DNA of 64,000 bases from an uncultured Bacteroidales bacterium. GTDB lineage: Bacteria > Bacteroidota > Bacteroidia > Bacteroidales > Muribaculaceae. The DNA is taken from contig CADAFP010000006.1 of NCBI GenBank assembly GCA_902787185.1, forward strand, positions 1-64,000, given 5' to 3'. The notes below the pieces were generated by a model. The model was given only the letters and a program-made list of their open reading frames with translations. It was not told where the DNA came from and did not search any database. The position numbers were made by a program, and so were the translations under genes. Position 1 is the first letter of the stretch; the number at the start of each line of letters is the position of its first letter. Shown here piece after piece: positions 6,203-35,978 of this stretch.

Positions 6203-6240
6203 ACCAGGCTATCCAGCTTGGGCTTTAACAACAAAAAACC
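6203..6240 (+). repeat. Truncated copy of the 6241/6418/8953 palindromic repeat
   Basis: Carries only the left edge of the unit (AGGCTATCCAG followed by GGCTTTAACAACAA) and then breaks into the full copy at 6241. It suggests repeated rearrangement at this place. Confidence 0.6.
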
Positions 6241-6367
6241 AGGCTATCCAGTTGGACTTTAACGACAAGAAAGACAAGAAAGACAATTTTCTTGACATCC
6301 TATTGACAAAAATGTCAGTCGGGATGTTCTATTTGTTTTTCTTGTCTTTCTTGTCTTCCTAAACCAC
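6241..6367. repeat. Palindromic intergenic repeat, copy 1
   Basis: A ~125-bp unit built as nested inverted repeats: outer arms GACAAGAAAGACAAG and CTTGTCTTTCTTGTC, middle arms ACATCC/GGATGT, inner arms TGACA/TGTCA around AAAA. The whole could fold as one long hairpin in DNA or RNA. No coding capacity. Near-identical copies lie at 6418 and 8953. The 429-bp gap 6181-6609 contains nothing else that I recognise. Confidence 0.9.
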
Positions 6368-6417
6368 AATTAGCGGCAAATTCTCGTTAGTTGGCAGTGA
6401 GGAAAGACAAGAAAATC

Positions 6418-6547
6418 AGGCTATCCAGCTTGAGTTTTAACGACAAGAAAGACAAGAAAGACAATTTTCTTGACATCCTATTGACAAAAATGTAAGTCGG
6501 GATGTTCTATTTGTTTTTCTTGTCTTTCTTGTCTTCCTAAACCACCT
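6418..6547. repeat. Palindromic intergenic repeat, copy 2
   Basis: Differs from copy 1 at very few positions over ~125 bp, including one change (TGTAAG for TGTCAG) that weakens the inner palindrome. Similarity to copy 3 continues beyond the palindrome, up to ATGGTTGTTTGAAA at 6588-6601. Confidence 0.9.
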
Positions 6548-6609
6548 CAATGATATTTTTTGTTTGTTTTGGATGTTCTTTGTCGTCATGGTTGTTTGAA
6601 ATACAGTCG

Positions 6610-8676
6610 TTAGTTGCTGGTGAGGATGGATTGGACGATGATATTGATGTCACTGATGTTGACCGAGCCGTCACCGTTCACGTCCATCGACGAGTCGCCC
6701 TTGCCGCTCAGGATGTCGTTCACCACATTGTTGAGGTCACTGATGTTCACCACACCGTCGCCGTTCACGTCACACACATCTGTGTGAACATCAATACCCA
6801 CGATATGGATAAACTTCTTCCACTTCTCGGCTGTTTTATATGCGTCCTCCGACCCTTTCGGCACAAACAGCGTTGCATTGGTGTAAGTCATCTCATCAAA
6901 ACCGTCAACAATAGTATTCCATATGATTTCCTCAGCGCCATTCGACAAAATGTATCTGTATGGTTCTTCTTCACTTCCCCTAAGCAGCGGTGGAACAGTT
7001 GCAAGACAGGTTATTGATGTTAAATTGCTGCATCTATAGAAAGGGTATTCTTCAATTGTCTTCATACCTTTTCCGATAGTGACTCTTTCAAGACCACTAC
7101 AACAGGAAAAAGCATAAGAACCTAACATAATAACAGAGTCTGGAATCACAATCTCGGTAAGTCCCTCACAACCGCCAAAAGCCCTTCCGCCAATATACCT
7201 CAACGACTTCGGAAAAGAAACACTTATAAGGCCAGAGCAATCATGATCTATATTATCATCACCGAAAGCATTCTCACTGATGCTATAGGTTCCCTCGCGA
7301 ATGACGAGTTCTGTTTTAGCAGGCATTGCACCCAAGTAATGATAAGCGGCCTTGCCAATATACAACAATCCATCTGGTTGGCTATTGTACCAAGGAGTAC
7401 CCATAAAAGTGGCATAACGCCCTGTTCGATAATCAGTTCCGCTTACAATCTTTATATTGTCCGGTATCTGAATGTTCACTAATTGCTCACAGCTAGAAAA
7501 AGCCAAATCGCCAATAAACTCTACCGAATCTCCAATAATGACAGATGTCAGTTGCTTGCAATGGGCAAAAGCCCAGCCTTCAAGAATCTTGACAGAATTA
7601 GGTATTACCACATTTATTAAGCCCGTATTATTGAAAGAGCTTCTAATCTCTGTAACACTGTTCGGAATGTCGATACTTGTCAGATTGGAGCAGTGGGCAA
7701 ATGCCGATTTATCAATAATTTTAACTGAATTTGGAATGGTGATCTCAGTTAGGTTTACACAATCACAGAATGCCGCTCTTCCTATTGTCAAGACTGAACT
7801 TGGTATGACTGTATTCATGCATCCTACCACTAATGTATTGGTTGCGGTTTCGATAATGGCGTTGCAATTGTTGCGGGAATCATAATGCGTGTTGGCAGCA
7901 CTCACTTTCACGGATTGCAAATCACGACATCCCGTAAAACACTCCTTTCCCATTTTAATGATTGACGCAGGTATGGTAAGATTAAAAAAGCCACAGTTAG
8001 CGAAAACTGAGTTTTGCAGAGTAATACTATTCGTCGAAGAAGAAAAGGAAAGATTTCTAAGACTTGAACAACCATAGAATGCTCCATCAGAAATGGTCTT
8101 GACTGACGCAGGGATTACAACCTCAGTCAGTTTCGTTTCATAGCAGAAATTGTTAGGTATAGTTTCAACATTGTTGCCGATTTCAACTTGTTCGACTTCT
8201 TTAAATGGAAATTCATTCCAACCATAACCATAATCAATTTCATTCTCAGCTTTATAGATGAGTTTTTTGATATGGCATCCAGTAAAGCCTCCAATCGAAT
8301 TTACTGATTTCCCGATTGTAAGCGTTGATAGATTTGAGCAGTTTTCAAACGCTGTACCAGTTATTTGCTGAACAGAGTCACCTATCACGACACTGGTAAT
8401 TGACGATTTACCACCAAAGCCACCCACTTGCTTCACAGTATAGGTCTTGCCATTATATGAAACCTTTTCGGGGATGACCAAATTGCTGATATAATCTTTG
8501 CAGTCAACCGCTATGGCAAATTCCTCAGTTGGATTTCCCCAGGCATCTTGATTACTTGTAAAGTAAAATATGTCATTATCTTCAATGATTTCAGTGGCAC
8601 TTGCTTGGCCAATGACAGCAAGCAAAGCCAAAAGTAGCAAGGTGGCTCGCAGGGGGATGGTTGTTGGTTGTTTCAT
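6610..8676 (-). CDS. BspA-type leucine-rich repeat surface protein with dockerin-like tail
   Basis: 688 residues. A signal peptide (residues 1-27, ending QASA) is followed by about twenty LRR_5/BspA repeats (roughly 60-610) with the recurring pattern IGDSV, FxxCSxLTxIxIPNSV. Residues 632-688 are two dockerin-like calcium loops (DVNGDGVVNISDLNNVV and DVNGDGSVNISDINIIV). Proteins of this class in Bacteroidales are exported and bind host or microbial surfaces; the ligand cannot be predicted. The gene is visibly richer in A/T than its neighbours and sits between direct copies of a palindromic repeat, so it may be a movable cassette. A TATCTTTG box lies about 170 bases upstream, leaving a long leader. 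Confidence 0.9.
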   Translation of the reverse strand: MKQPTTIPLRATLLLLALLAVIGQASATEIIEDNDIFYFTSNQDAWGNPTEEFAIAVDCKDYISNLVIPEKVSYNGKTYTVKQVGGFGGKSSITSVVIGDSVQQITGTAFENCSNLSTLTIGKSVNSIGGFTGCHIKKLIYKAENEIDYGYGWNEFPFKEVEQVEIGNNVETIPNNFCYETKLTEVVIPASVKTISDGAFYGCSSLRNLSFSSSTNSITLQNSVFANCGFFNLTIPASIIKMGKECFTGCRDLQSVKVSAANTHYDSRNNCNAIIETATNTLVVGCMNTVIPSSVLTIGRAAFCDCVNLTEITIPNSVKIIDKSAFAHCSNLTSIDIPNSVTEIRSSFNNTGLINVVIPNSVKILEGWAFAHCKQLTSVIIGDSVEFIGDLAFSSCEQLVNIQIPDNIKIVSGTDYRTGRYATFMGTPWYNSQPDGLLYIGKAAYHYLGAMPAKTELVIREGTYSISENAFGDDNIDHDCSGLISVSFPKSLRYIGGRAFGGCEGLTEIVIPDSVIMLGSYAFSCCSGLERVTIGKGMKTIEEYPFYRCSNLTSITCLATVPPLLRGSEEEPYRYILSNGAEEIIWNTIVDGFDEMTYTNATLFVPKGSEDAYKTAEKWKKFIHIVGIDVHTDVCDVNGDGVVNISDLNNVVNDILSGKGDSSMDVNGDGSVNISDINIIVQSILTSN

Positions 8677-8843
8677 ATGCGTGCTAGGTTGTTTTTGGTG
8701 TCGCGTTGGTCCCTCTCAACGGCGACGGGTAGTTATAAAACACGAAAACGTGGGGACATTGTCTACTTGACGTAAGCACGAAACGCTTTCCTTAATAAAA
8801 TGTCTGTCGTGGCCGACCTGCATAGTGTCAGCCTTGACAGATG

Positions 8844-8851
8844 CAAAGATA
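8844..8851 (-). promoter_or_regulatory. TAnnTTTG promoter for the LRR gene
   Basis: TATCTTTG on the minus strand, giving a ~165-nt untranslated leader. The gap 8677-9157 otherwise holds only this leader and repeat copy 3. Confidence 0.65.
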
Positions 8852-8952
8852 AGCCATTTTTCCCATTCCGCTATCAGTTTTCACACTTTTTCTCAATGCG
8901 AATTACACAAATTGAACTAATTTCACGAATTATGTAAAAAGAATTAGCGTGG

Positions 8953-9083
8953 GGTTTTAACGACAAGAAAGACAAAAAAGACAAAAAAGACAAAAAAGAC
9001 AAATTACTTGACATCCTGTTGACAAAATTGTCAGTCGGGATTTCCTTTTTGTTTTTCTTGTCTTTCTTGTCTTCCAAAACCAC
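8953..9083. repeat. Palindromic intergenic repeat, copy 3
   Basis: Same unit as at 6241 and 6418, with the left arm expanded by AAAAAAGAC-type steps (GACAAAAAAGACAAAAAAGA). The sequence after it, to 9140, also matches the flank of copy 2 and ends in the same ATGGTTGTTTGAAA. Confidence 0.85.
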
Positions 9084-9145
9084 TTTTTTGATAGTTATCG
9101 TGTTGTTTTGGTTGTTCATTATTGTTATGGTTGTTTGAAAAGTTG

Positions 9146-18723: not shown

Positions 18724-21700
18724 TCATTTGCTTTTCTTGTTGCCCTTCTTCTTACCGTTGTCGGTGCTGGCGTTGGAAGTGTTTGACGACTTGCCACCGC
18801 TCCACTTGTTCAGGCGGGAGTCAATCTCGTTGAAGATTTCCTTTTCCTTGCCCGGATAGTTGCTCTTGAGGCTCTGCAGGTATTCCTTGGCCTGAGACAC
18901 ATTTCCTTGCTTGTAATAGACATCAGCCAGGGTGAGGAAGCTCTTTGCCAGCCAGTAGGTGTGCGATGTTCCCTTGTCAATGAGCGCATTGATGGTCTGC
19001 TCGGCGCCCTTGAAGTTGCCCAGTTCATACTGCATGCGCGAGAGCTCGTAGGAAGCCTGAGCGCCATACTCGTTGCTGGGATCCTTGGCCAATTCGTTGA
19101 GGGCGGCCTCGGCGTCCTTGGTATTGCCCACCTGGGCGAACGACAAGGCACGGTCGAGTTTCACCTCACGCTCCTCGTTGGAGGTCAAGCCACCCCTGTT
19201 GAGCAGGATTCCGGCAATGTTCTGCACCTCGCCCCACTTGCCCATCTTCTTGGCGATGCGCATCGCACCGATTTGTGCCAGCGTGCGGTTGTCGTCGCTG
19301 GTAGCCCTCTCGGCCAGGTCCTTATAGCTCTGGAGCGCCTCGTCGAGCTTGCCCTGACGGGACAGGATGTCGCAGCGAATGGCGATGGCATCCTGGGCAT
19401 AGGAGGCGTCGCCACCGGCCTTGAGTGCCTCATCAAGCGCGGCCATCGCATCGTTGTAATTACCCTTTGCGTAATGATAGCGTGCGATATAATACTGTGC
19501 CTTGGCGGCATAGGCTCCATTAGGATAGTTCTGCAAGTATTGCTGCATCTTGTCAATGCTGGGACGGTCGCTGATGGCGGTCTTCTCGGCAGCCTCAAAG
19601 GTGAGACGTTCGGCCTCGTTGACATCGATCTGGGGCGCGTTGGGCACGCTGCTCAAGAACTTGCTGAACTCGCCAAGCTGTCCCTTGTCGGCAAAGATGA
19701 GTTTCATATCCTCGGCTGCTGCCTGTGCCTCGGCGCTGGTGGGATACTGACGGATTACCTTCTTGTAGGCTTCAATGGCGTCATCCTCCTTGCCGATGGT
19801 CTTATTGACAAGGGCCGTCTGCAACAGACCCTTGCGTGCCGACACGCTCTTGGGATAGCTCTTGAGCAGTCCGGCATAGGTCTCCAGAGCCTCGTTATAG
19901 CGGGAGAGCAATGCCTGGGCATTACCCTTCTCGAGCAAGGCCTGCGGGGCAAGGTCACTCTTGGGGAAAGCCTTGACAAGGGCATCCATCTGGGTGATTT
20001 CCTCGCTGTAATTCTTGTTGAGGCCCATCATAATGCCCTTCTGATACATCGAGTAGTCCCCGCTATTGTTCTTGTCCATCTTGGCCGCCTGGTCGTAGGT
20101 GTGCTGCGCCCCAGCAAAGTCGCGGGCATAATACTGGGTGTCACCGATGCGGTTATAAGCATCGGCCATCAGGTCCGGACTCAGCATCTTGCTCTCGATG
20201 GCGTTACGGAAAGCGGTGCGTGCCTCGGCATATTGTTTCTGGCCGAAGAGACTGTAGCCCAAGTTATACTGCGCGATGCCGTAGTTGTCATCGCTCCTAT
20301 TGACTTGCTTGACATATTCCTGCTGGTTGCGCGCTGCCTCCTTGTAGTTGCCGGCACGGTATTGCGCCTCGGCAAGCCACAGGCGGCTCTCGTTGAGGGC
20401 GGTCTTGTCATAGTTGCCCACGGCGATGGCCTGCTTGAAGTAGTCGGCAGCCTCGTCGTTGCGGTTGTTGGCAAGCGACTGGACACCCAGGTTATAAAGC
20501 ACCTTCTGCTTAGCGGTGAGCACCTTAGCACCAGGGCTCTTGATGCGGTTGATGCTCGTCAGGGCACGCTTGTAATCGGTAGTGCCGGTGTAAGCATCCA
20601 CCAGATAACCTTCCACATTATCTTTATAGCGTGAATTGGGATACTCATTGAGGAAGTCCTCAAACAGGTCAATACTCTTATCAAACGGCGTGCGTGCGCC
20701 CTTGCTCAACCCGACAGCGTAATTGTAGTAGGCCGTCTCCTTGACACTGCGGTCACAGTCCATCGTGGCAGCCTGCTGGAAAGCCATATTGGCGCCGTTG
20801 AGGTCACCCAATTGGCGCTTGGCCTGACCCAGGTAGAGGTAGGCGCTCTGCGTCAGGGCGTCAGCGCCGTCGGTGACGTGGAGCATGTCGTTGACCACCT
20901 CCCTGTAGTTGCCGTCACGGTACTCGAGCACACCCATAGTGTAAGCGGCGGTGCGGAAAGGCTCACCCTCGGGGTTATCGAGGTAACGCCTCAGATAGGT
21001 GCGTGCCTGAGCGTCATTGCCCAAATGGTAGTAACTCTCACCGACAAGGCGGTTGAGCTCGGCATCAAAGTAGTCGTTCTGCCCCATCTCGAGCAGCGAC
21101 TTGCCCTGATTGATGACATCATTAAAACGCTTGTCGTTATAGGCAATCTGGGTGAGGTAATACTGGGACTGGAAGCCCAACTCGCTGGCCTGAGGGATGG
21201 CACCAAACTCCGCCTTAGCAGCATTGTAGTCGCCACGGGCATAGTCCAGATAGGCCTTGTAGAAGTCGCTGGCACCGCTATAGCGTGGGCTCTTTTCCAG
21301 CTCATAATACAAGCGCTCGGCCTCGCGGTAATCCGCCATGCGCAGGTAGCAATAAGCGCGGCGGTACATTAAGTCCTCATCAGAGTTCTTGTCCAGCGCG
21401 CGGTTGCGTACGAGCGAGTAACTGAGCAACGCACTCTCCCACTGACCACGGTAAAAGTAGAAATTGCCGATCTTCATCTGCGCTTCCATCGCCAGCGGAG
21501 AGCCCGGATAGCGCTGGATGAAACGCTGCAGAGCCTTCAGGCTCGACTCCTCGCCCCGCTCAAACCGGCTCAAGGCGATATAATAATCGGCCTGTTCACG
21601 CATTGAGGCGTCACAAGGCAACTGGCCGACGTGCTCCAACTGGTCGATGGCACCCACATAGTTGTGAGACTCATACATGAGCAAGCCGCGCTCGAGATAG

Positions 21701-29515: not shown

Positions 29516-29588
29516 GATTCGCTAGCTCAGCAGGTAGAGCACATCCCTTTTAAGGATGGGGTCGTGGGTTCGAGCCCCACGCGAATCA
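29516..29588 (+). tRNA. tRNA-Lys(UUU)
   Basis: A 73-nt cloverleaf: acceptor GATTCGC/GCGAATC with discriminator A, D arm GCTCAGCAGGTAGAGC, anticodon stem CATCC/GGATG around loop CTTTTAA (anticodon TTT), T arm GTGGGTTCGAGCCCCAC. The 3' CCA is not encoded. Its 3' end is the integration site of the adjacent mobile element; the original downstream terminator now lies 6.4 kb away at 35988. Confidence 0.97.
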
Positions 29589-29589
29589 C
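29576..29589 (+). repeat. attL core (3' end of tRNA-Lys)
   Basis: CCCACGCGAATCAC, identical to 35965-35978. It covers the T-arm and acceptor 3' strand of the tRNA, the usual site for tyrosine recombinases. Confidence 0.9.
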
Positions 29590-29590
29590 A

Positions 29591-29611
29591 ATGACGGGTA
29601 ATCGCCCGTCA
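29591..29611 (+). other. Hairpin directly 3' of tRNA-Lys, supplied by the element
   Basis: ATGACGGG/CCCGTCAT with a 5-base loop and no T-run. It may guide 3' processing of the tRNA now that the native terminator has been displaced. Confidence 0.5.
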
Positions 29612-29669
29612 TTAGCCATAATACGCTAATAATGCGATAGTACCAAAAATTACCATGGATTACAAAAAA

Positions 29670-29690
29670 GAGTACTTTTTTAGTACTTTT
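29670..29690 (+). repeat. Left arm-type integrase site (two AGTACTTTT units)
   Basis: A 21-bp sequence with AGTACTTTT twice, 11 bp apart; a third AGTACT follows at 29699. The same 21 bp, one mismatch, is at 35895-35915, near the other end. Placement about 80 bp inside attL and 50 bp inside attR fits integrase arm sites. Confidence 0.7.
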
Positions 29691-29703
29691 CCGAAAAAAG
29701 TAC

Positions 29704-29711
29704 TATCTTTG
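29704..29711 (+). promoter_or_regulatory. TAnnTTTG promoter for the integrase
   Basis: TATCTTTG 27 bases before ATG 29739 and overlapping the arm-site region, so integrase binding could repress its own gene. Confidence 0.7.
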
Positions 29712-29738
29712 CATCATCAACCGAAAAACGATTCTATT

Positions 29739-31037
29739 ATGGCAAGTGTAAGATTTGAATTATCAGTGAAAGGTGGTAGCGATAATGACCGCCCAGAGTT
29801 GAGGGTTTGGCTACGTTATGGCACACCACAAAAGAGGATTAGTTGCAGGTCTGGCCTCTACGGATTCCGCGACTACTGGAGTGAGAAAAAGCAGACCCAC
29901 GGCACGAGGTTAGTTAATCCGTTATTCCTCGCCGAAGTCGTGGAAGTAAACAAGAAACTGGCCACACTCAAAACCGAAGTAGAGACCGCCGTAGCGAACA
30001 CACCGACAAGCGATATTTGCCGCCCGTGGCTCGCTCAAATAGTCGAGGATGTATTGCACCCAACCAAGAAAGAGAAAGAGCCGCAAGACACGCCCAAAAC
30101 GCTAATGCAAGCGTTTTGGGACTTCATAGAGGCAGCACCGAAAAGGATTCAGCCAAAGAGCGGCAGGCCTATTTGCGCCGCCCGTCTCAATCACTACAAG
30201 CAGACATTAAAGATTCTGGAGGCCATGGGTGCAGATGGCGTGACGATTGAACGCACCGACAAGGCCTTTTTTGATTCATTTGTCCGCTATATGTATGCCA
30301 ATGGCTACAAGCATAACACGATATTTACCCGCGTCAAGTGCATTAAATCGGTCATCAATTCTCTACCGATGGCCGAGCGGGTTAATTGTGAGTTCGTGGA
30401 GGCTAAGAAGTGCGCGGCAGTGATGGAAGATATTGATAACTGCTACCTCGATGAGAGAGAGCTGCAATCTCTGGCCGACCTCGACCTTAGTAGTCATGCC
30501 TATCTTGACAAGGTGCGTGACCAGTTCCTACTACTGGCGTGGACTGGTTGCCGATATAGCGACCTATGCAAGTTGTCAAGGATGTACATCATCAAGGAAG
30601 ATGGAGAGGACTGTTTCAAGTTCGAGCAGCAAAAAACGGCTGCAAAAGTGGTCATCCCTATCTTGCCGCCGATTGTGCCGATACTGGAGAAGTACGACTA
30701 TCAACCGCCGCGGCCTATCAGTAACCAGAGATTTAACGACTACATTAAGCAGGTGGCGCAGATGGCAGGCCTCGACGATGAGGTGGCCGTGACCCATACG
30801 CAGCAAAAGGATGACTTCACGATAGGCCGCGTCGAGACGCGAAGACCCAAGTGGCAGGCCGTCACCGCCCACACCGCCCGCAGGTCATTTGCTACGAATA
30901 TGTATAAGCGAGGCTACCCCTCACTGGCTATCATGGCCATAACTGGCCACAAGACCGAGAAGTCATTCTTAACCTACATCAAGGTAAGCCAAGCAGAGAA
31001 CGCCACACTATTAAAGAAACAATTCATTTGGCGATGA
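29739..31037 (+). CDS. int: Tyrosine recombinase / integrase
   Basis: 432 residues from ATG 29739 (MASVRFELSVKGG); an in-frame ATG at 29655 is upstream of the promoter and is rejected. N-terminal arm-binding domain (residues 1-110), SAM-like core-binding domain (about 125-230), and catalytic domain with WTGCRYSDL (catalytic Arg), HTARRSF (HxxR) and GHKTEKSFLTYIKVS (the nucleophile Tyr). It resembles integrases of Bacteroidales mobile elements. It inserts the element into the tRNA-Lys 3' end through the CCCACGCGAATCAC core. The next gene begins within its stop codon (ATGA). Confidence 0.95.
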   Translation: MASVRFELSVKGGSDNDRPELRVWLRYGTPQKRISCRSGLYGFRDYWSEKKQTHGTRLVNPLFLAEVVEVNKKLATLKTEVETAVANTPTSDICRPWLAQIVEDVLHPTKKEKEPQDTPKTLMQAFWDFIEAAPKRIQPKSGRPICAARLNHYKQTLKILEAMGADGVTIERTDKAFFDSFVRYMYANGYKHNTIFTRVKCIKSVINSLPMAERVNCEFVEAKKCAAVMEDIDNCYLDERELQSLADLDLSSHAYLDKVRDQFLLLAWTGCRYSDLCKLSRMYIIKEDGEDCFKFEQQKTAAKVVIPILPPIVPILEKYDYQPPRPISNQRFNDYIKQVAQMAGLDDEVAVTHTQQKDDFTIGRVETRRPKWQAVTAHTARRSFATNMYKRGYPSLAIMAITGHKTEKSFLTYIKVSQAENATLLKKQFIWR

Positions 31038-31717
31038 TGAGAACAAATGACATTACCGATTTAATCTACAATTTGCGTGACATTCGGCAGTATTGGTTTG
31101 GGGCAGAGACACCAAATATAAGTGAATTGATATGTCAAGCAGATTACACACTTTCGCGAGTAGGCGATTTCATTGATTATGTGAAAGGCAGTTGTGTCCG
31201 TGAAGTGATAGATGAATTAGACAAGGAAATGCTTGAATATTGTAGGGCATATTCTGCACTTATTAGCGTTGAGCAGAAGTTTGATGTGTCCGGGGAGGCA
31301 GACAAGGAGACACTTTTTAGGATATTGCATAGTATCGTTGAGTGGAGTGAGTGGATTAAAAAGTTATCTGGATTCTATAATCAAGACACCCCAGAGCGAG
31401 CCAAAACCGACATGGATATTAGGAGCTGTTTGTTAGTTCAAGATGACAAGAAAGATGACTTACTGAAAGAATTGCATTTACTTATTGACGGGCAAAAGGG
31501 TAAATTTGTAGCCATTGTGATTCTTGTATGTGTGGAGATGGGATTGATGGGAAAACCGACGTTTGGAGTGCTTAAAGCGGAGTTTGGCAATATTGGTAAT
31601 CCAAGTGGGTTTAATAACCAGTACAAACGAATCAAAGAAACCAATGATAGGAATAGTTGGAAAACCGAGATAGACGGGATTAAGTCACATTTTATTTCCT
31701 TTTTGGAGAAGATTTGA
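31034..31717 (+). CDS. Unknown protein co-transcribed with integrase
   Basis: 227 residues from ATG 31034, which overlaps the integrase stop as ATGA (ATG 31037 is also possible). Not recognised as a named family. Residues 1-110 are charged and helical; the C-terminal ~90 residues (DDLLKELHLLIDGQKGKF, then GKPTFGVLKAEFGNIGN, FNNQYKRIKE) look like a small independent domain of the kind found in other Bacteroidales mobile-element proteins. The gene is clearly more A/T-rich than those around it and may be a cargo gene, for instance for defence or regulation; that is speculation. Confidence 0.75.
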   Translation: MMRTNDITDLIYNLRDIRQYWFGAETPNISELICQADYTLSRVGDFIDYVKGSCVREVIDELDKEMLEYCRAYSALISVEQKFDVSGEADKETLFRILHSIVEWSEWIKKLSGFYNQDTPERAKTDMDIRSCLLVQDDKKDDLLKELHLLIDGQKGKFVAIVILVCVEMGLMGKPTFGVLKAEFGNIGNPSGFNNQYKRIKETNDRNSWKTEIDGIKSHFISFLEKI

Positions 31718-31742
31718 TAGCGTGAAATAGTTTTTAATAGCC

Positions 31743-31828
31743 GACTATTACTGACTATTACAAAAATTTTACGGACTATAACACCCTCTACTACCTTTGC
31801 CGCCGACAACGAAGTCAGCGGCATTTTT
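31743..31828 (+). promoter_or_regulatory. Control region before the excisionase-like gene
   Basis: Three GACTAT(T/A)AC repeats (31743, 31753, 31774), spaced 10 and 21 bases so that they face the same side of the helix, precede a TACCTTTG box (31792-31799). TGCCGC (31798-31803) pairs with GCGGCA (31818-31823) and five T follow: transcripts coming through from the integrase could end here, while transcripts starting at the box lack the left arm and would escape. Confidence 0.65.
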
Positions 31829-31859
31829 ACGCCTCGACGGGAAGTGTCATTCAAACAGT

Positions 31860-32156
31860 ATGGCAAACATAGGAACACCCAGAACGCAGGTAGTCATGGA
31901 CTACGACGATGTAACACGGATGATAGATGAAATGGCCGACAAGGTTGTAGCCAGATTGCAGCAGGTCACGCCGCCCGCGAGCAACGATGACAAGACGATG
32001 ATGACACCTAAAGAGGTGCGCTCAATCTTCGGCGTGACCGACAAGACATTGCACGTCTGGAACAAGACGGGATTTTTGCCTAGAGTGAGGATAGGTGGCG
32101 TGGTGCGCTACCGTCGTGAGGATGTGGAACGCGCAGCGCAAGTCAAGGGCAAGTGA
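31860..32156 (+). CDS. Excisionase-like HTH_17 (MerR-type) DNA-binding protein
   Basis: 98 residues from ATG 31860; earlier in-frame starts lie in the promoter/hairpin. The C-terminal half, TPKEVRSIFGVTDKTLHVW then GGVVRYRREDVERAA, is a winged HTH of the HTH_17/excisionase type. Such proteins direct excision (Xis) or control early genes of integrated elements. It overlaps the next gene by one base (TGATG). Whether it is Xis or an activator for the downstream replication block cannot be told. Confidence 0.82.
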   Translation: MANIGTPRTQVVMDYDDVTRMIDEMADKVVARLQQVTPPASNDDKTMMTPKEVRSIFGVTDKTLHVWNKTGFLPRVRIGGVVRYRREDVERAAQVKGK

Positions 32157-32908
32157 TGGCAAGACAAGAGAGGCAGCGTGCAGTCGGATGGCGGGATGAG
32201 ACACCCATTTACATCAACTTTCCAATATCCATGTTTAGAAAACTAGATGGAGACAGTCTTGACGTAAAAGATTTCAAGAAGTTGGTGGATGCAATTATCG
32301 ACTTTGGGATTGCGTCACGATACATCAATGAGTGTGGCGTGAATCACAGTTCAAGGTACTACTACGAAGATGTGTTCACACGGGTACTGGAACGAATGGG
32401 GATAACCGTCAATATGGATATTGGTCAATTCTTTTCATTCCATATCCAATCCAAGATTAAGCAAGCCAGAAAGACCGATGGCGAGGTCTTTTGCGGCATG
32501 AATAAGTCATTGCTTTTTCACTATCTTAATGAGGATGTGAGCGACTTTGAGTGTGTGCAATTCTTGTGCTATTGCGCTATCCGTTCAATTTTAGGGAGTG
32601 CGTGGATAGACCACCAGAGGCCAGTTATCAAGCGTATCACATGGGAGTTTATCTTGTCAAGGATGGCAGGCAACACCAAGCGTGAGCCAGTGGAAAAGTT
32701 GCCTAAATTCATCCGTCACTATTCCAGTAAGAGACACCGCTCGAAACTTCGCAAGGCCATAACGAATAAATGGCCAGTGCAAATTGACGGGAGGCAGAGA
32801 GGCCGTGGCGGTGCGTTCTACATGATAGGTGATTCAATGCCTATTGCCGAGGCCGTGGCTTTATATCTGGAACGTCGAGGCCGTGGAAAAGGCTCGAAAC
32901 ATGGGTAG
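32156..32908 (+). CDS. Candidate replication initiator (unrecognised family)
   Basis: 250 residues from ATG 32156 (GTG 32153 possible). I do not recognise the family. A helical N-terminal part (residues 25-150) is followed by KRITWEFILSRMAG and a basic stretch (SSKRHRSKLRKAI) leading to VQIDGRQRGRGGAFYMIG, which could be a helix plus beta-wing of a DNA-binding fold. The reason for calling it an initiator is position: it ends four bases before an array of five iterons, as in rep-ori cassettes of plasmids and satellites. The C-terminus is very basic (RRGRGKGSKHG). Confidence 0.5.
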   Translation: MARQERQRAVGWRDETPIYINFPISMFRKLDGDSLDVKDFKKLVDAIIDFGIASRYINECGVNHSSRYYYEDVFTRVLERMGITVNMDIGQFFSFHIQSKIKQARKTDGEVFCGMNKSLLFHYLNEDVSDFECVQFLCYCAIRSILGSAWIDHQRPVIKRITWEFILSRMAGNTKREPVEKLPKFIRHYSSKRHRSKLRKAITNKWPVQIDGRQRGRGGAFYMIGDSMPIAEAVALYLERRGRGKGSKHG

Positions 32909-32911
32909 TTT

Positions 32912-33067
32912 TATTTATGTGGAACAAAAAGAAACACCGTTCCACATAAATAAGGTTTGCGTACCACATAAATAGAAAAAGTCCCACATAAATAATGAAT
33001 AAGGCAAAAGAAAGAAAAGTTCCACATAAACAACAAAACTACTACCGTAGTAAAAGAAAGAAAAGAT
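32912..33067. other. Iteron array, probable replication origin
   Basis: Five copies of GTNCCACATAAA(T/C)A: one inverted (32912-32925) and four direct (32939, 32961, 32981, 33019), spaced about 20-22 bp or double that. A TACTA-CCG-TAGTA palindrome (33040-33052), two AAAAGAAAGAAAAG tracts and a highly A/T-rich stretch follow. This is the layout of an iteron-controlled origin with an unwinding region. The rest of the 397-bp gap to 33305 holds the GCTAACGC repeats. Confidence 0.75.
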
Positions 33068-33151
33068 TATAAACAACAACAGTAGAAGAAGTGAAGAAGA
33101 AAAACCGCCCACTCTTGTTTTTGGTTGAACACATGGCCTATTGTCATGGCT

Positions 33152-33221
33152 CGCTACGCTCACTATTCGCTAACGCTCATTTGCCCGCTAACGCGGTGGA
33201 GTTGTTTAACGGCTAACGCCG
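33152..33221. repeat. GCTAACGC hairpin cluster next to the iterons
   Basis: CGCTAACGC occurs at 33168, CCGCTAACGCGG at 33185-33196 and CGGCTAACGCCG at 33210-33221, with a degenerate copy at 33152. The last two are small hairpins with the same TAAC loop. Possible primosome or nickase sites; no proof. Confidence 0.55.
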
Positions 33222-33305
33222 TGGGATGAGGTGGAGGATTGGAGTGTCGGTGTAGTGTCCCAGATTGAGAGAGGCCGCGGCGATGACAAACACGATTCAA
33301 AGTAC

Positions 33306-33575
33306 ATGATGACTTACAACATAACGGATGACGATTTGAGAGGATTCTGCAAGTGGTTTGGGGAGTGGCACGGATTCGAGGCCGTGGCCGCGTCAGTGAT
33401 GACTACTTGCATGACTGGTTACTTCAAGACTTACACCAGAGAGGCCGAGAAGATTCTGGCGCGGTGCGTGAGGCTTGACCTACTGGCAGAGGCCGACGGC
33501 AAAGTCACTTTCATCCGCGACGCGGTGCAGTCCAAGAGCAATGCAATGATAAACCAGAGAGACGATGACAACTGA
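33306..33575 (+). CDS. Small hypothetical protein before rusA
   Basis: 89 residues from ATG 33306; a GTG at 33231 would add 25 residues. Not recognised. The C-terminal half (REAEKILARCVRLDLLAEADGKVTFI-like) could be a last helix and wing of a winged-helix fold. It overlaps rusA by 11 bases and so is probably translated with it. Encoded in a typical early-gene position of an element, but no function can be given. Confidence 0.55.
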   Translation: MMTYNITDDDLRGFCKWFGEWHGFEAVAASVMTTCMTGYFKTYTREAEKILARCVRLDLLAEADGKVTFIRDAVQSKSNAMINQRDDDN

Positions 33576-34005
33576 AACGATATACGGGCAGATAGTCGCA
33601 AAGGCCAACAATTACCAAGCAGTGCCAGACGGCAGCGGAGGCCGACGTATCATCAAGAACGCCAAAATACGCGCCTATGAGCGCAAGTTTGCCTCACAAT
33701 GCACGATATATTGCGGGATGGGGATTTCTACACCTTTCCGTCTTTACGCTCATATCTGGCAAAAGGATGAGCGGTGCGACCTCGACAACAGTCTTAAGAC
33801 CCTGCTTGACTGCTTGCAGTCGGTCGGCGCGGTCACGGATGACAAGTTATGTGTCGAGATAGTTGCAAAGAAAGGCATAGACAAGGCAAGTCCCAGAGTG
33901 GAGTTTGCCATAGAAGAGATAAACAAGCAATTATCGCTCTTTGACTTGCGGGAGTTGTACTTGCAAGCCAGAGGGCAGAACAACATCAATAAGACCAGAA
34001 AATGA
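33565..34005 (+). CDS. rusA: RusA-family Holliday junction resolvase
   Basis: 146 residues. KANNYQAVP near the N-terminus and CDLDNSLKTLLDCLQ followed by VTDDKLCVEIVAKKG match the RusA fold; the aspartates in DLDN and DDK are the metal-binding catalytic residues. RusA enzymes cut four-way junctions and occur mainly in phages and their satellites, where they resolve replication or packaging intermediates. The stop overlaps the next start as ATGA. Confidence 0.85.
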   Translation: MTTETIYGQIVAKANNYQAVPDGSGGRRIIKNAKIRAYERKFASQCTIYCGMGISTPFRLYAHIWQKDERCDLDNSLKTLLDCLQSVGAVTDDKLCVEIVAKKGIDKASPRVEFAIEEINKQLSLFDLRELYLQARGQNNINKTRK

Positions 34006-34493
34006 ACAACGAGAATCTAAAGAAAGGCTCGCGGACAAGATTCCGTAGCGGCGAGGTAGCGGCGAGAAATGGTAAAAAGGGAGGTTTGGCTAACGGCAAG
34101 AGGCGCAGGGACAAGAGGGAACTATATAAGATACTCAAAGACCTGCTTGCGCTGCCGATGACGGATGTAACGGGCAATCCCGTCACGTCACCAATAACGG
34201 GCAATCCAATGTCTATAATGGAGGCTATGGCCATGACCACTATCCAAAAGGCTATCAAGGGCAGTGTGCAACACATTCGCCTCATTATTGACGTAATGGG
34301 ATGGAAAGCACCCCAGAGGGTTGATGCTACGGTCATCAATGAGACCGACACAAGAACAATAGACGAAATGACGCGCGAACTACGGAGGCTCACGCGCCGT
34401 GATGCGCTACTGCTTGACGATAAGCAGGCACGGCAATTAGATGAGATTCTGGATGTCTTATATCCAGTGGCAGAGGGTGGTAGTGCCTATTAG
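34002..34493 (+). CDS. KGG/DUF5681-like protein, possible terminase small subunit
   Basis: 163 residues. The N-terminus FRSGEVAARNGKKGG then GKRRRDKRELYKILKDLL is the basic KGG-type start of DUF5681-like phage proteins; IMEAMAMTTIQKAIKGSVQHI and IIDVMGWKAPQ complete the usual core. Such proteins are encoded beside large terminases in many phages and are often called small terminase subunits. Here no large subunit is present, which is the situation in phage satellites that redirect a helper's packaging machine. The terminase assignment is inference. Confidence 0.65.
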   Translation: MNNENLKKGSRTRFRSGEVAARNGKKGGLANGKRRRDKRELYKILKDLLALPMTDVTGNPVTSPITGNPMSIMEAMAMTTIQKAIKGSVQHIRLIIDVMGWKAPQRVDATVINETDTRTIDEMTRELRRLTRRDALLLDDKQARQLDEILDVLYPVAEGGSAY

Positions 34494-34525
34494 GCACTGT
34501 TTGGTTAGTGATAGTACTTTCTGTC

Positions 34526-34771
34526 TCATGGTGCAGTCGGCTCAATGTGAATCATCCCGCCACAATGGGGACAAGTGATGAAGTTCCCGCGAGGCTCAAA
34601 CAGTTCGCCCACGGACACGCCCAGAGCCGATGCAATCTTTTCCAGAGTTCGCAGGGATGGGTTAGAGTTTTCTGCCAGTTGTTGGGACAGTGCGCCCTCA
34701 CTGATACCAATTTGAGCGGCCAGAGCCTTAGCGGTCATGCCTTTTTCTTTCAAGATGTCTTTTACTCGCAT
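34526..34771 (-). CDS. XRE-family repressor
   Basis: 81 residues on the minus strand. Residues 12-60 form a Cro/cI-type HTH (TAKALAAQIGISEGALSQQL), followed by SVGELFEPRG and a short tail with CPHCGG, a possible half zinc knuckle. It is transcribed away from the WYL_2 gene across a 206-bp region with palindromic operators, the usual arrangement of a master repressor. It may keep the right-hand genes silent until induction. Confidence 0.85.
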   Translation of the reverse strand: MRVKDILKEKGMTAKALAAQIGISEGALSQQLAENSNPSLRTLEKIASALGVSVGELFEPRGNFITCPHCGGMIHIEPTAP

Positions 34772-34977
34772 AGTCTAGAATTTTAATATAACTGAATTAC
34801 CAATATATGGGCAAAGATAGCAAAAATTATGCCTTAACGTAATTATCAATCATTAAATATAGTTAAAACGTAACTTTTTAGGTTGATTTATTGGTCTATT
34901 AGTTTAGTTGGCACTAAATTTGCATATCTAAAAATGAAGTTACAACTAAATTATTGACAATCTAAAAAGATACGACT
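34772..34977. promoter_or_regulatory. Divergent control region of the element
   Basis: Contains TATCTTTG on the minus strand (34812-34819) for the repressor and TAAATTTG on the plus strand (34915-34922) for the WYL_2 gene. Operator-like palindromes: AGTTA-AAACG-TAACT (34861-34875), TTTAGT-TGGC-ACTAAA (34903-34918, overlapping the plus-strand -7 box) and AGTT-AC-AACT (34938-34947). The shared AGTTA/TAACT half-site suggests repressor binding. Confidence 0.65.
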
Positions 34978-35307
34978 ATGAGTACCGAGAGAAAAAACAA
35001 GTTAAGCAAGGTCATGAATCTGGCATGGCAGTTTGTTAAGCGCAACGGCCTTTCGATGAGCGAGGCTCTGGTTATTGCATGGCGCAATGTGAAGTTAGTT
35101 TCATCCATGCGTCGCGGCATAGTAAGGTTTTACTTCCGCAAGGTGGATGGCACAATCCGCGAGGCCTACGGCACACTGGTAGAGCGTTTGTTGCCTGCCA
35201 CTAACGGCAGCGGCCGCAAGGCTAACGACACGGTGCAGACCTACTTCGACACCGAACGCCAAGAGTATAGATGTTTCAAAAAGGCTAATTTGGCCGCAAT
35301 TCAATAA
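34978..35307 (+). CDS. WYL_2 / Sm-like SH3-fold protein (DUF2693-like)
   Basis: 109 residues. Residues about 44-109 (GIVRFYFRKVDGTIREAYGTL, ending YRCFKKANLAAI) match the small SH3-like barrel domain named WYL_2 that is frequent in Bacteroidales phages and mobile elements. The N-terminal 40 residues are helical. Possibly a nucleic-acid-binding regulator of the element. It is the first gene controlled by the repressor region. Confidence 0.7.
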   Translation: MSTERKNKLSKVMNLAWQFVKRNGLSMSEALVIAWRNVKLVSSMRRGIVRFYFRKVDGTIREAYGTLVERLLPATNGSGRKANDTVQTYFDTERQEYRCFKKANLAAIQ

Positions 35308-35368
35308 CGATATTAACCGTCGATGGCGTGGCGGGACTACCGCCACCCTCGACACAATCTACAACGAT

Positions 35369-35632
35369 ATGAATACACTACAATTAGGAGGCAAAAAGAC
35401 TTTGCCCGTCAGTGACACAACCGCAAAGATAACGCAGGCTATGGTTATGTTTGCCGAGGCTATGGCTCTATTTACCGAGGCCTACGATGATGACGGACTG
35501 GAAACGATAGGCGCAAGTGACTTTACAAAAGTCAGTGGCCACTATACCGACTTGATGGATGAGATAGGCCGCGTATTAGGGCAGAGGGTAGCCTATACCG
35601 CCGCGGCTATTGATGACTTAAAGGGACTGTGA
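35369..35632 (+). CDS. Small hypothetical protein
   Basis: 87 residues, no recognised family. Mostly helical and acidic (MVMFAEAMALFTEAYDDDG, then YTDLMDEIGRVLG). It follows the WYL_2 gene by 61 bases and ends before a hairpin terminator, so it is the last protein gene of the element. Confidence 0.6.
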   Translation: MNTLQLGGKKTLPVSDTTAKITQAMVMFAEAMALFTEAYDDDGLETIGASDFTKVSGHYTDLMDEIGRVLGQRVAYTAAAIDDLKGL

Positions 35633-35655
35633 GCGACTGCAACCCCAGAGGATGA

Positions 35656-35691
35656 GTGACCGTGTGGATGAGCCATGCGGTCACTTGTTTT
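35656..35691 (+). terminator. Terminator of the right-hand element operon
   Basis: GTGACCG (35656-35662) and CGGTCAC (35678-35684) with TTGTTTT after it. Confidence 0.75.
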
Positions 35692-35711
35692 GTACTTCCG
35701 CGAAATATGCC

Positions 35712-35719
35712 TATCTTTG
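35712..35719 (+). promoter_or_regulatory. TAnnTTTG promoter of the candidate small RNA
   Basis: TATCTTTG with TTTG at 35689-35692 as -33 element, 19 bp apart; no start codon follows in a useful frame. Confidence 0.65.
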
Positions 35720-35723
35720 CCGT

Positions 35724-35805
35724 CGATTCACGCTTGCCACCTCTGGCAGCATAGAATCTTTTTCGGTTTGGCTGACGTTCCAGTGATGGAGTGTCAGCCT
35801 TTTTT
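35724..35805 (+). ncRNA. Candidate small RNA of the mobile element
   Basis: About 80 nt between a complete promoter and an intrinsic terminator. It would contain a TGCCA/TGGCA hairpin (around 35735-35750), a U-rich single-stranded stretch, and the terminator stem GGCTGAC/GTCAGCC (35770-35776, 35793-35799) followed by six T. No open frame of useful length. The transcription start is estimated from the -7 box. A regulator of the element or of a helper phage is possible. Confidence 0.55.
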
Positions 35806-35879
35806 GAATTCTCGAGCGACCTAGGAAATCCCATGCGGTTGGAGACCGGCTAGGAATTCTCGAGCGACCTAGGAAATCC
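35806..35879 (+). repeat. Two perfect 26-bp direct repeats near the right end
   Basis: Copies at 35806-35831 and 35854-35879, 22 bp apart. Each contains three six-base palindromes (GAATTC, CTCGAG, CCTAGG) close together. They lie between the small-RNA terminator and the right arm site. Could be a packaging, partition or initiator site. Confidence 0.85.
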
Positions 35880-35894
35880 ACAAAAAAACAATTC

Positions 35895-35915
35895 GAGTAC
35901 TTTATTAGTACTTTT
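35895..35915 (+). repeat. Right arm-type integrase site
   Basis: Twenty of 21 bases as at 29670-29690, same orientation, with AGTACTTT twice. Confidence 0.7.
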
Positions 35916-35964
35916 TTGGTGACGTATAGTTGTAACTGCTTGATAATCAGTATTAGGTTGTAAT

Positions 35965-35978
35965 CCCACGCGAATCAC
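35965..35978 (+). repeat. attR core
   Basis: CCCACGCGAATCAC, the second copy of the tRNA-Lys 3' end sequence, not followed or preceded by other tRNA sequence. Confidence 0.9.

Follow-up and report, generated by a model that had tools for sequence, protein, structure and literature searches.

A 6.4-kb element integrated at tRNA-Lys in an uncultured Bacteroidales bacterium, a probable phage satellite with RusA and small-terminase-type genes

Most known phage satellites come from Proteobacteria and Firmicutes. In Bacteroidales, the mobilizable nonreplicating Bacteroides units (NBU-type units, NBUs) are small integrative elements with a tyrosine integrase. PICMI115, a phage-inducible chromosomal minimalist island (PICMI), measures 6,110 bp, and has the gene order int-iolg-alpA-prim and 17-bp repeats; in a fraction of its particles, full-size heads enclose eight copies joined as a multimer (PMC10803314). 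For the phage-inducible chromosomal islands (PICIs), terS of the Staphylococcus aureus pathogenicity islands (SaPIs) causes the island to be packaged in preference to other DNA (PMC6092414); the string ‘bacteroid’ has no occurrence in the main text of that paper. NBUs carry a mobilisation protein according to a reference title in a review (PMC11389934) whose passages on the subject mention satellites from a number of other groups but, for Bacteroides, NBUs alone. Another study excluded satellites from its analysis (PMC10924106). No such satellite in Bacteroidota was found among the titles and abstract openings of the literature surveyed, although the SatelliteFinder survey might list some. Here we describe an element, e1, in a 64,000-nucleotide stretch (the window) of contig CADAFP010000006.1 from an uncultured Bacteroidales bacterium. 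We consider it likely that e1 is a helper-dependent phage satellite in tRNA-Lys, built like PICMI and PICI and equipped with its own small terminase subunit (TerS) and RusA. We favor this reading because e1 has defined ends and encodes an integrase, because units of the same type and empty sites occur in relatives, and because it has conserved RusA and TerS-type genes while no large terminase, portal or capsid gene was recognised in it.

The element is a 6,389-bp unit (29576–35978) flanked by exact 14-bp copies of the tRNA-Lys 3′ end (Table 1). This duplication, proposed in the initial annotation, stands well clear of chance, as 6.5-kb stretches drawn at random from the window outside e1 (210 of them) had at most 8–10 bp in common with the tRNA region as their longest word. 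Pairs of AGTACTTT-type repeats with 11-bp spacing lie close to both ends and are probably integrase arm sites; such an arm-like pair is also present at the left end of four of six relatives (L082, L086, L088 and L089) and missing from that of the other two (L081 and L083). Ten e1 genes were scanned against Pfam, PHROGs and NCBIfam; six have a family match and four have no convincing one. The initial annotation had named an integrase, an excisionase-like helix-turn-helix (HTH) protein and a RusA, each of which now has a profile match, and had listed no structural, large-terminase, relaxase or conjugation genes, families that are likewise missing at a convincing level from the ten genes in the three libraries.

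Directly after RusA comes a gene for a KGG protein, which is very probably the small terminase, because a large terminase (TerL, phrog_38) is the next gene in all four phage relatives where this could be checked. Three of these (L022, L023 and L024) have phrog_38 next; in the fourth (L014, from the genome scan) the order is KGG relative, large terminase (Terminase_6C, phrog_38), portal gene. Left out of the count were L025 (a doubtful match of 2.2e-4, with one internal stop, inside another protein), L026 (where the contig ends before the next gene) and L013 (38% identity over 55 aa, the next gene having no PHROG match). An earlier guess of ‘terminase-small-like’ is strengthened by these neighbors, while the DUF5681 label given along with it falls below the Pfam cut-off (0.0017); no literature tying DUF5681 to a small terminase was found. 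The matching family, phrog_2412, carries no listed function, and a match of the KGG protein to head morphogenesis phrog_241 (0.054) was set aside as weak. When 393 genomes of the order were searched with a KGG profile, seven matches in five genomes came up, two of them in the genome of the window and the other five being L022–L026; 14 control genomes had no match. For RusA, the phage collection contains three matching proteins, with 36–39% identity.

The same pair of genes recurs in two collinear elements. The second element (e2) is in the same genome as e1 (contig C35, locus L006), in tRNA-Arg(ccg), with a 17-bp attachment-site (att) repeat and a length of 7,561 bp; the third (e3) is in a metagenome-assembled genome (MAG) of the same genus (L012), in tRNA-Arg(cct), with a 19-bp att repeat and a length of 7,243 bp. 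All three have the order int, orf2, HTH, replication-slot gene, RusA, KGG. The DNA of e1 and e2 can be aligned (E 1e-3) in RusA and KGG only, at 80% identity, apart from one 19-bp word; the integrase and replication-slot genes of e2 and e3 differ from those of e1, the slot gene being without a Pfam match in e2 and DUF6291 in e3. The RusA and TerS frames are open in e1, e2 and e3. The ratio of nonsynonymous to synonymous rates (dN/dS) for e1 versus e2 and e3 is 0.06–0.08 for RusA and 0.18–0.19 for TerS, and is 0.14 for RusA between e2 and e3; judged by these ratios, RusA and TerS of e1 are under purifying selection.

A RusA search matched 10 of 397 genomes, that of the window included, and led to two more bounded elements in another genus of the family: e4 (L041; tRNA-Leu, 30-bp att, 6,389 bp) and e5 (L042; tRNA-Arg, 17-bp att, 6,388 bp). 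Their genes are int, a small orf, HTH, AAA_25, DUF6371, RusA and a KGG-like protein, with families scanned in L041 only (L042 is 91% identical there). The ‘GGRKKGTPNK’ proteins of e4 and e5 are not counted as TerS, having no Pfam match and two phage relatives with no large terminase beside them in the sequence inspected. Of the other RusA loci, five were not classed with e1 and L043 was taken separately.

The pepT-tRNA-Lys stretch was sought in 101 genomes of the genus, and the best 30 loci were taken, one being the window itself. Among the 29 fetched, 14 are empty, with the right flank of the window beginning 49–684 bp past the tRNA (the farthest, L078, may hold a remnant); seven carry, behind the tRNA, an integrase with 75–80% identity to the e1 enzyme; and eight are of other kinds or uninformative (different neighbors, contig ends and, in one case, a 7.7-kb island that retains a remnant of an integrase). 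Six of the seven integrase loci have an exact 14-bp att copy, giving elements of 6,210, 5,520, 6,356, 5,995, 5,869 and 5,833 bp; at the seventh (L084) no exact copy was found, and the usual right-flank gene is met within 5 kb. Comparison of six relatives with e1 shows alignment at the integrase end, in the HTH region and over the last 73–90 bp at the right end, and most of the remaining core does not align. Genus-wide, 10 of the 101 genomes, that of e1 included, have an integrase of 75% or higher identity to the e1 protein. The two elements beyond the seven are likewise bounded (L126, 19-bp att, 5,001 bp; L127, 14-bp att, 5,879 bp). In one of the ten genomes, G797, the contig holds its tRNA-Lys and the integrase match is without the first 107 residues. 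Nine of the ten same-integrase elements are therefore bounded, at 5.0–6.4 kb, and none of the ten, all read around the integrase, is part of a larger prophage or integrative and conjugative element (ICE). No prophage was noticed after tRNA-Lys at the sites read (the 30 loci and G722, among the 101 genus genomes, a few being cut by contig ends). The initial annotation had suggested looking for the element and for empty sites in other genomes, and had named structural or mobilisation genes of the same element elsewhere, or a decayed fragment of a larger prophage or ICE, as what would overturn its view; both the occupied and the empty sites were found, and neither of the two contrary findings was made.

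More distant integrases (44–46% identity) also head bounded elements: L129 (tRNA-Met, 6,660 bp), L130 (tRNA-Met, 6,446 bp), L131 (tRNA-Arg, 6,373 bp) and L132 (tRNA-Cys, 5,751 bp), a set that leaves out 15 further, weaker integrase places. Exact att copies are present in 17 of the 20 elements examined, the others being L043, L084 and L128, the last of which runs to its contig end and has 13-bp repeats not tied to a tRNA.

Table 1. Features of e1 and its insertion site, in window coordinates
Feature	Position	Strand	Evidence or comment
tRNA-Lys(ttt)	29516..29589	+	integration target, still intact with the insert (ARAGORN)
attL core CCCACGCGAATCAC, 14 bp	29576..29589		exact repeat of attR core
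Paired AGTACTTTT repeats 11 bp apart, plus inverted copy	29671..29705		probable integrase arm sites
Tyrosine integrase, 432 aa	29739..31037	+	PF00589 7.9e-11; PF13102 1.1e-5
ORF2	31034..31717	+	possible start at ATGA overlap with int; no convincing family match
AlpA/Xis-like HTH_17 regulator	31860..32156	+	HTH_17 7e-9; phrog_66 excisionase-regulator 6e-10
Replication-initiator candidate, 250 aa	32156..32908	+	overlaps stop of HTH gene; basis is position and iterons
Five iteron-like repeats CCACATAAA	32911..33033		candidate origin, downstream of the initiator candidate
89-aa protein	33306..33575	+	no assigned function; relative in L130, another small element of the genus, 7.6e-24
RusA-like Holliday-junction resolvase	33565..34005	+	PF05866 7.3e-10; phrog_140 1.5e-11
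KGG protein, TerS homologue	34002..34493	+	phrog_2412 1.9e-15; ATGA overlap with RusA
XRE/Cro-CI-type regulator, 81 aa	34526..34771	-	HTH_26 3.7e-13, also HTH_3; divergent from WYL_2
WYL_2 / phrog_1086 protein	34978..35307	+	WYL_2 1.2e-22
87-aa protein	35369..35632	+	open reading frame; no assigned function
Perfect 26-bp direct repeat GAATTCTCGAGCGACCTAGGAAATCC, two copies 48 bp apart	35806..35879		near attR
attR core CCCACGCGAATCAC, 14 bp	35965..35978		inside right end 35892..35978, which also has arm-like repeats

The rep-iteron unit of the initial annotation fared unevenly. Its iterons held up: CCACATAAA occurs five times within 117 bp (32914–33030) and nowhere else in the window, and shuffled sequences contain it 0.44 times on average, with none of 100 reaching five. 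The initiator itself is a candidate by position, with no convincing match in the three libraries and a poor AlphaFold prediction (mean pLDDT 45.6). By the same 9-mer rule, no such cluster was found in seven of eight other elements; other clusters are present in L086 and e3. The replication slot of relatives is filled by DUF6291, DUF3987 or AAA_25/DUF6371 proteins, and no primase family was found among the e1 genes in Pfam, PHROGs or NCBIfam, DUF3987 or DUF6371 genes occurring in relatives only.

ORF2, which has relatives in L081 (9.6e-34) and L126 (2.7e-28), occupies the position of the PICMI ‘integrase overlapping gene’ and may be an excision helper. The HTH_17 regulator is kept in relatives; its match to small terminase phrog_57 (7.4e-4) was set aside as that of a common HTH. 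The XRE repressor of the initial annotation was recovered, without the divergent operators proposed with it, as only imperfect repeats were seen in the region divergent from the gene; a match of the XRE protein to the conjugal-transfer regulator TrbA (8.6e-9) was set aside at 35.5 bits against a cut-off of 96. The WYL_2 protein has 67% identity to its counterparts in two phages, one of Bacteroides and one of Elizabethkingia. PADLOC gave no convincing defence gene among the ten proteins (best 0.0086). The 26-bp repeat near attR might be a packaging signal or an integrase accessory site.

Several side observations concern the other elements. Between RusA and TerS, e2 (L006 6409–7230) and e3 (L012 9180–10004) have an inserted glycine-rich protein beside a DUF6948 protein. 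A contig of a fecal virus collection (MT835900, L027) has a RusA match, adjacent relatives of these two genes of e2 (8613–9134) and a relative of the DUF6291 protein of e3. L043 (G061:C7), near a tRNA-Lys (19176–19249), has a Terminase_2-type TerS, RusA, an 820-aa protein and a WYL_2 protein sharing 77% identity with its e1 counterpart; a search for an att copy found none, and L043 is hence not counted as bounded. The att-to-att lengths of e1 (6,389 bp), L041 (6,389 bp) and L042 (6,388 bp) nearly coincide, though the sequence of e1 has little in common with the other two; we treat this as coincidence because the other 14 bounded elements span 5,001–7,561 bp. Five elements at different tRNAs (L083, L128, L130, L131 and L132) have a recurring gene pair (211–226 aa and 120–137 aa), each gene related across the five (phmmer) and without a convincing Pfam match where scanned; the pair are candidates for helper interaction. 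At the tRNA-Lys site itself, L085 (G694:C1) holds the 7.7-kb island already counted, with glycosyltransferase-like genes (by eye) and bounded by the same 14-bp att copy; the match to the e1-type integrase is a remnant only, and surface-sugar genes are apparently parked at the site.

As a helper-dependent satellite, e1 might work as follows, by analogy with PICMI and SaPI. Entry of a helper phage would trigger excision by the integrase with the HTH or ORF2 protein, and the initiator candidate and iterons would drive replication. RusA could resolve or trim branched or concatemeric e1 DNA, TerS would recruit the large terminase of the helper to it, and helper particles would take up the DNA, perhaps in multimeric form given that e1 shows no gene for capsid remodelling.

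A number of results weigh against such a life cycle. The fold prediction for TerS is poor (AlphaFold, mean pLDDT 58.2). This TerS has three copies, confined to two of the 101 genomes of the genus, and is absent from the rest of the 198 genomes searched in the family, its dN/dS between e2 and e3 (0.41) points to weaker constraint there, and dS for e1 versus e2 and e3, at about 1.4, is near saturation. None of the nine other same-integrase elements of the genus matches the RusA or KGG of e1–e3, and the packaging genes are therefore not a fixed part of the e1 integrase lineage; one of the nine, L081, has a DUF5681 protein, and in the remaining elements, where some of the genes were scanned with profile libraries, further packaging genes may be present. 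Narrow pattern scans of the virus-contig collection with KGG, rep, RusA, two integrase alignments and the attR pattern returned nothing, while a scan with the L129 large terminase matched contigs that look like phages. KGG and rep were also not found in the phage collection by tblastn. The host genome, a MAG that is 81% complete, has no confident large terminase, so no resident helper was seen: one weak match (2.1e-5) was rejected, its neighbors not being phage-like by eye, and PF03237 and PF04466 had no match; the three large-terminase searches were positive in 6, 6 and 3 of 14 control genomes. Because no relative of e1 was found in the viral collections, we infer its transfer in particles of other viruses, which we hold to be probable, from its integration, probable replication and packaging-start genes and the lack of recognised shell genes.

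The absence of the RusA/KGG pair from the nine relatives fits another account, that e1 is a small integrative element capable of its own excision and replication, which acquired its phage RusA and KGG by chance and is moved by other means (mobilisation in trans via an origin of transfer, or passive uptake). The iterons and rep candidate suggest replication, and those of the nine relatives that were scanned have DUF3987 or another replication-slot gene. We nevertheless think this unlikely: no relaxase family is found in the ten e1 genes, and RusA and TerS stay together, under selection, across elements with unrelated integrases. Nor do relatives lacking TerS exclude phage transfer, because the known phage satellites include minimal int-alpA-prim elements that have no TerS (PICMI, PMC10803314). 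That e1 is a decayed prophage that has retained its lysogeny and early genes is very improbable, for although RusA, WYL_2 and KGG are phage-type genes and RusA is among early-type genes in one Bacteroides phage, the same bounded size class occurs in many genomes with conserved ends, swapped cores and empty sites (which also excludes a decayed ICE), the frames are open with low dN/dS, two collinear elements share one genome, and no larger element has the e1 integrase in the 10 of 101 genus genomes carrying it.

The satellite reading, which thus agrees with the first of the two possibilities in the initial annotation (a helper-dependent satellite or an integrative replicon), can be extended from e1 to its wider family. 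One of the distant-integrase elements, L129 (G754:C2), has int, HTH, AAA_25, DUF6371 and a phage large terminase on the reverse strand (6224–7483; Terminase_3C 7.9e-20, Terminase_3 4.2e-11), and no portal or capsid gene was noticed in it. This TerL is 65% identical to a virus-contig protein (L133) whose next genes are phage-like by eye. The large terminase of L129 and the TerS and RusA of e1 indicate different packaging genes across the wider family. There may be, and here we are evenly divided, a widespread undescribed clade of satellites of ∼5–7.6 kb in Bacteroidota, with a fixed int-orf2-HTH end, a swappable core and varied captured packaging pieces (TerS with RusA, DUF5681-type proteins, or a whole large terminase) that would serve different helpers. 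The Prevotella-like group is abundant in guts. If the proposal is right, a compact modular family in Prevotella-like bacteria extends the satellite lifestyle to Bacteroidota, int-orf2-HTH with RusA-TerS can serve as marker genes for finding more such elements, and helper use becomes testable in these bacteria.

At about half the size of a PICI, e1 has the general make-up of a phage satellite, an integrase in an att-bounded unit with no structural genes recognised. It has no relaxase or conjugation family of the kind expected of an ICE or an integrative and mobilizable element, only the sub-cut-off TrbA match. Unlike NBUs, it has no recognised mobilisation protein and does have phage packaging-type genes (PMC11389934). 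The likeness to the PICMI of Vibrionaceae is closer: both are ∼6 kb, with an integrase, a small gene overlapping int by ATGA, an AlpA-like HTH, a replication gene (a candidate in e1), no capsid genes and att direct repeats of similar length (PMC10803314). However, PICMI integrate at fis and e1 at tRNA-Lys, the int, alpA and primase set of PICMI is incomplete in e1, which has no recognised primase, and the RusA and TerS homologue of e1 are not among the six PICMI115 genes (PMC10803314). The hosts belong to different phyla, and the PICMI authors observed no genome with more than one PICMI, whereas the e1 genome has two collinear elements (PMC10803314). Having no fis site and no primase found, e1 is outside the PICMI in the strict sense. 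From the PICIs (Gram-negative and SaPI types) e1 differs in its extra XRE gene on the other strand and its RusA, and with them it shares int, an AlpA-type regulator and the terS that some of them have, and it has a candidate for their replication module (PMC6092414). The AlpA/MerR-type regulator near int that marks PICIs is present in e1 as the HTH_17 and phrog_66 protein, and their optional terS homologue as the phrog_2412 protein whose phage relatives adjoin TerL.

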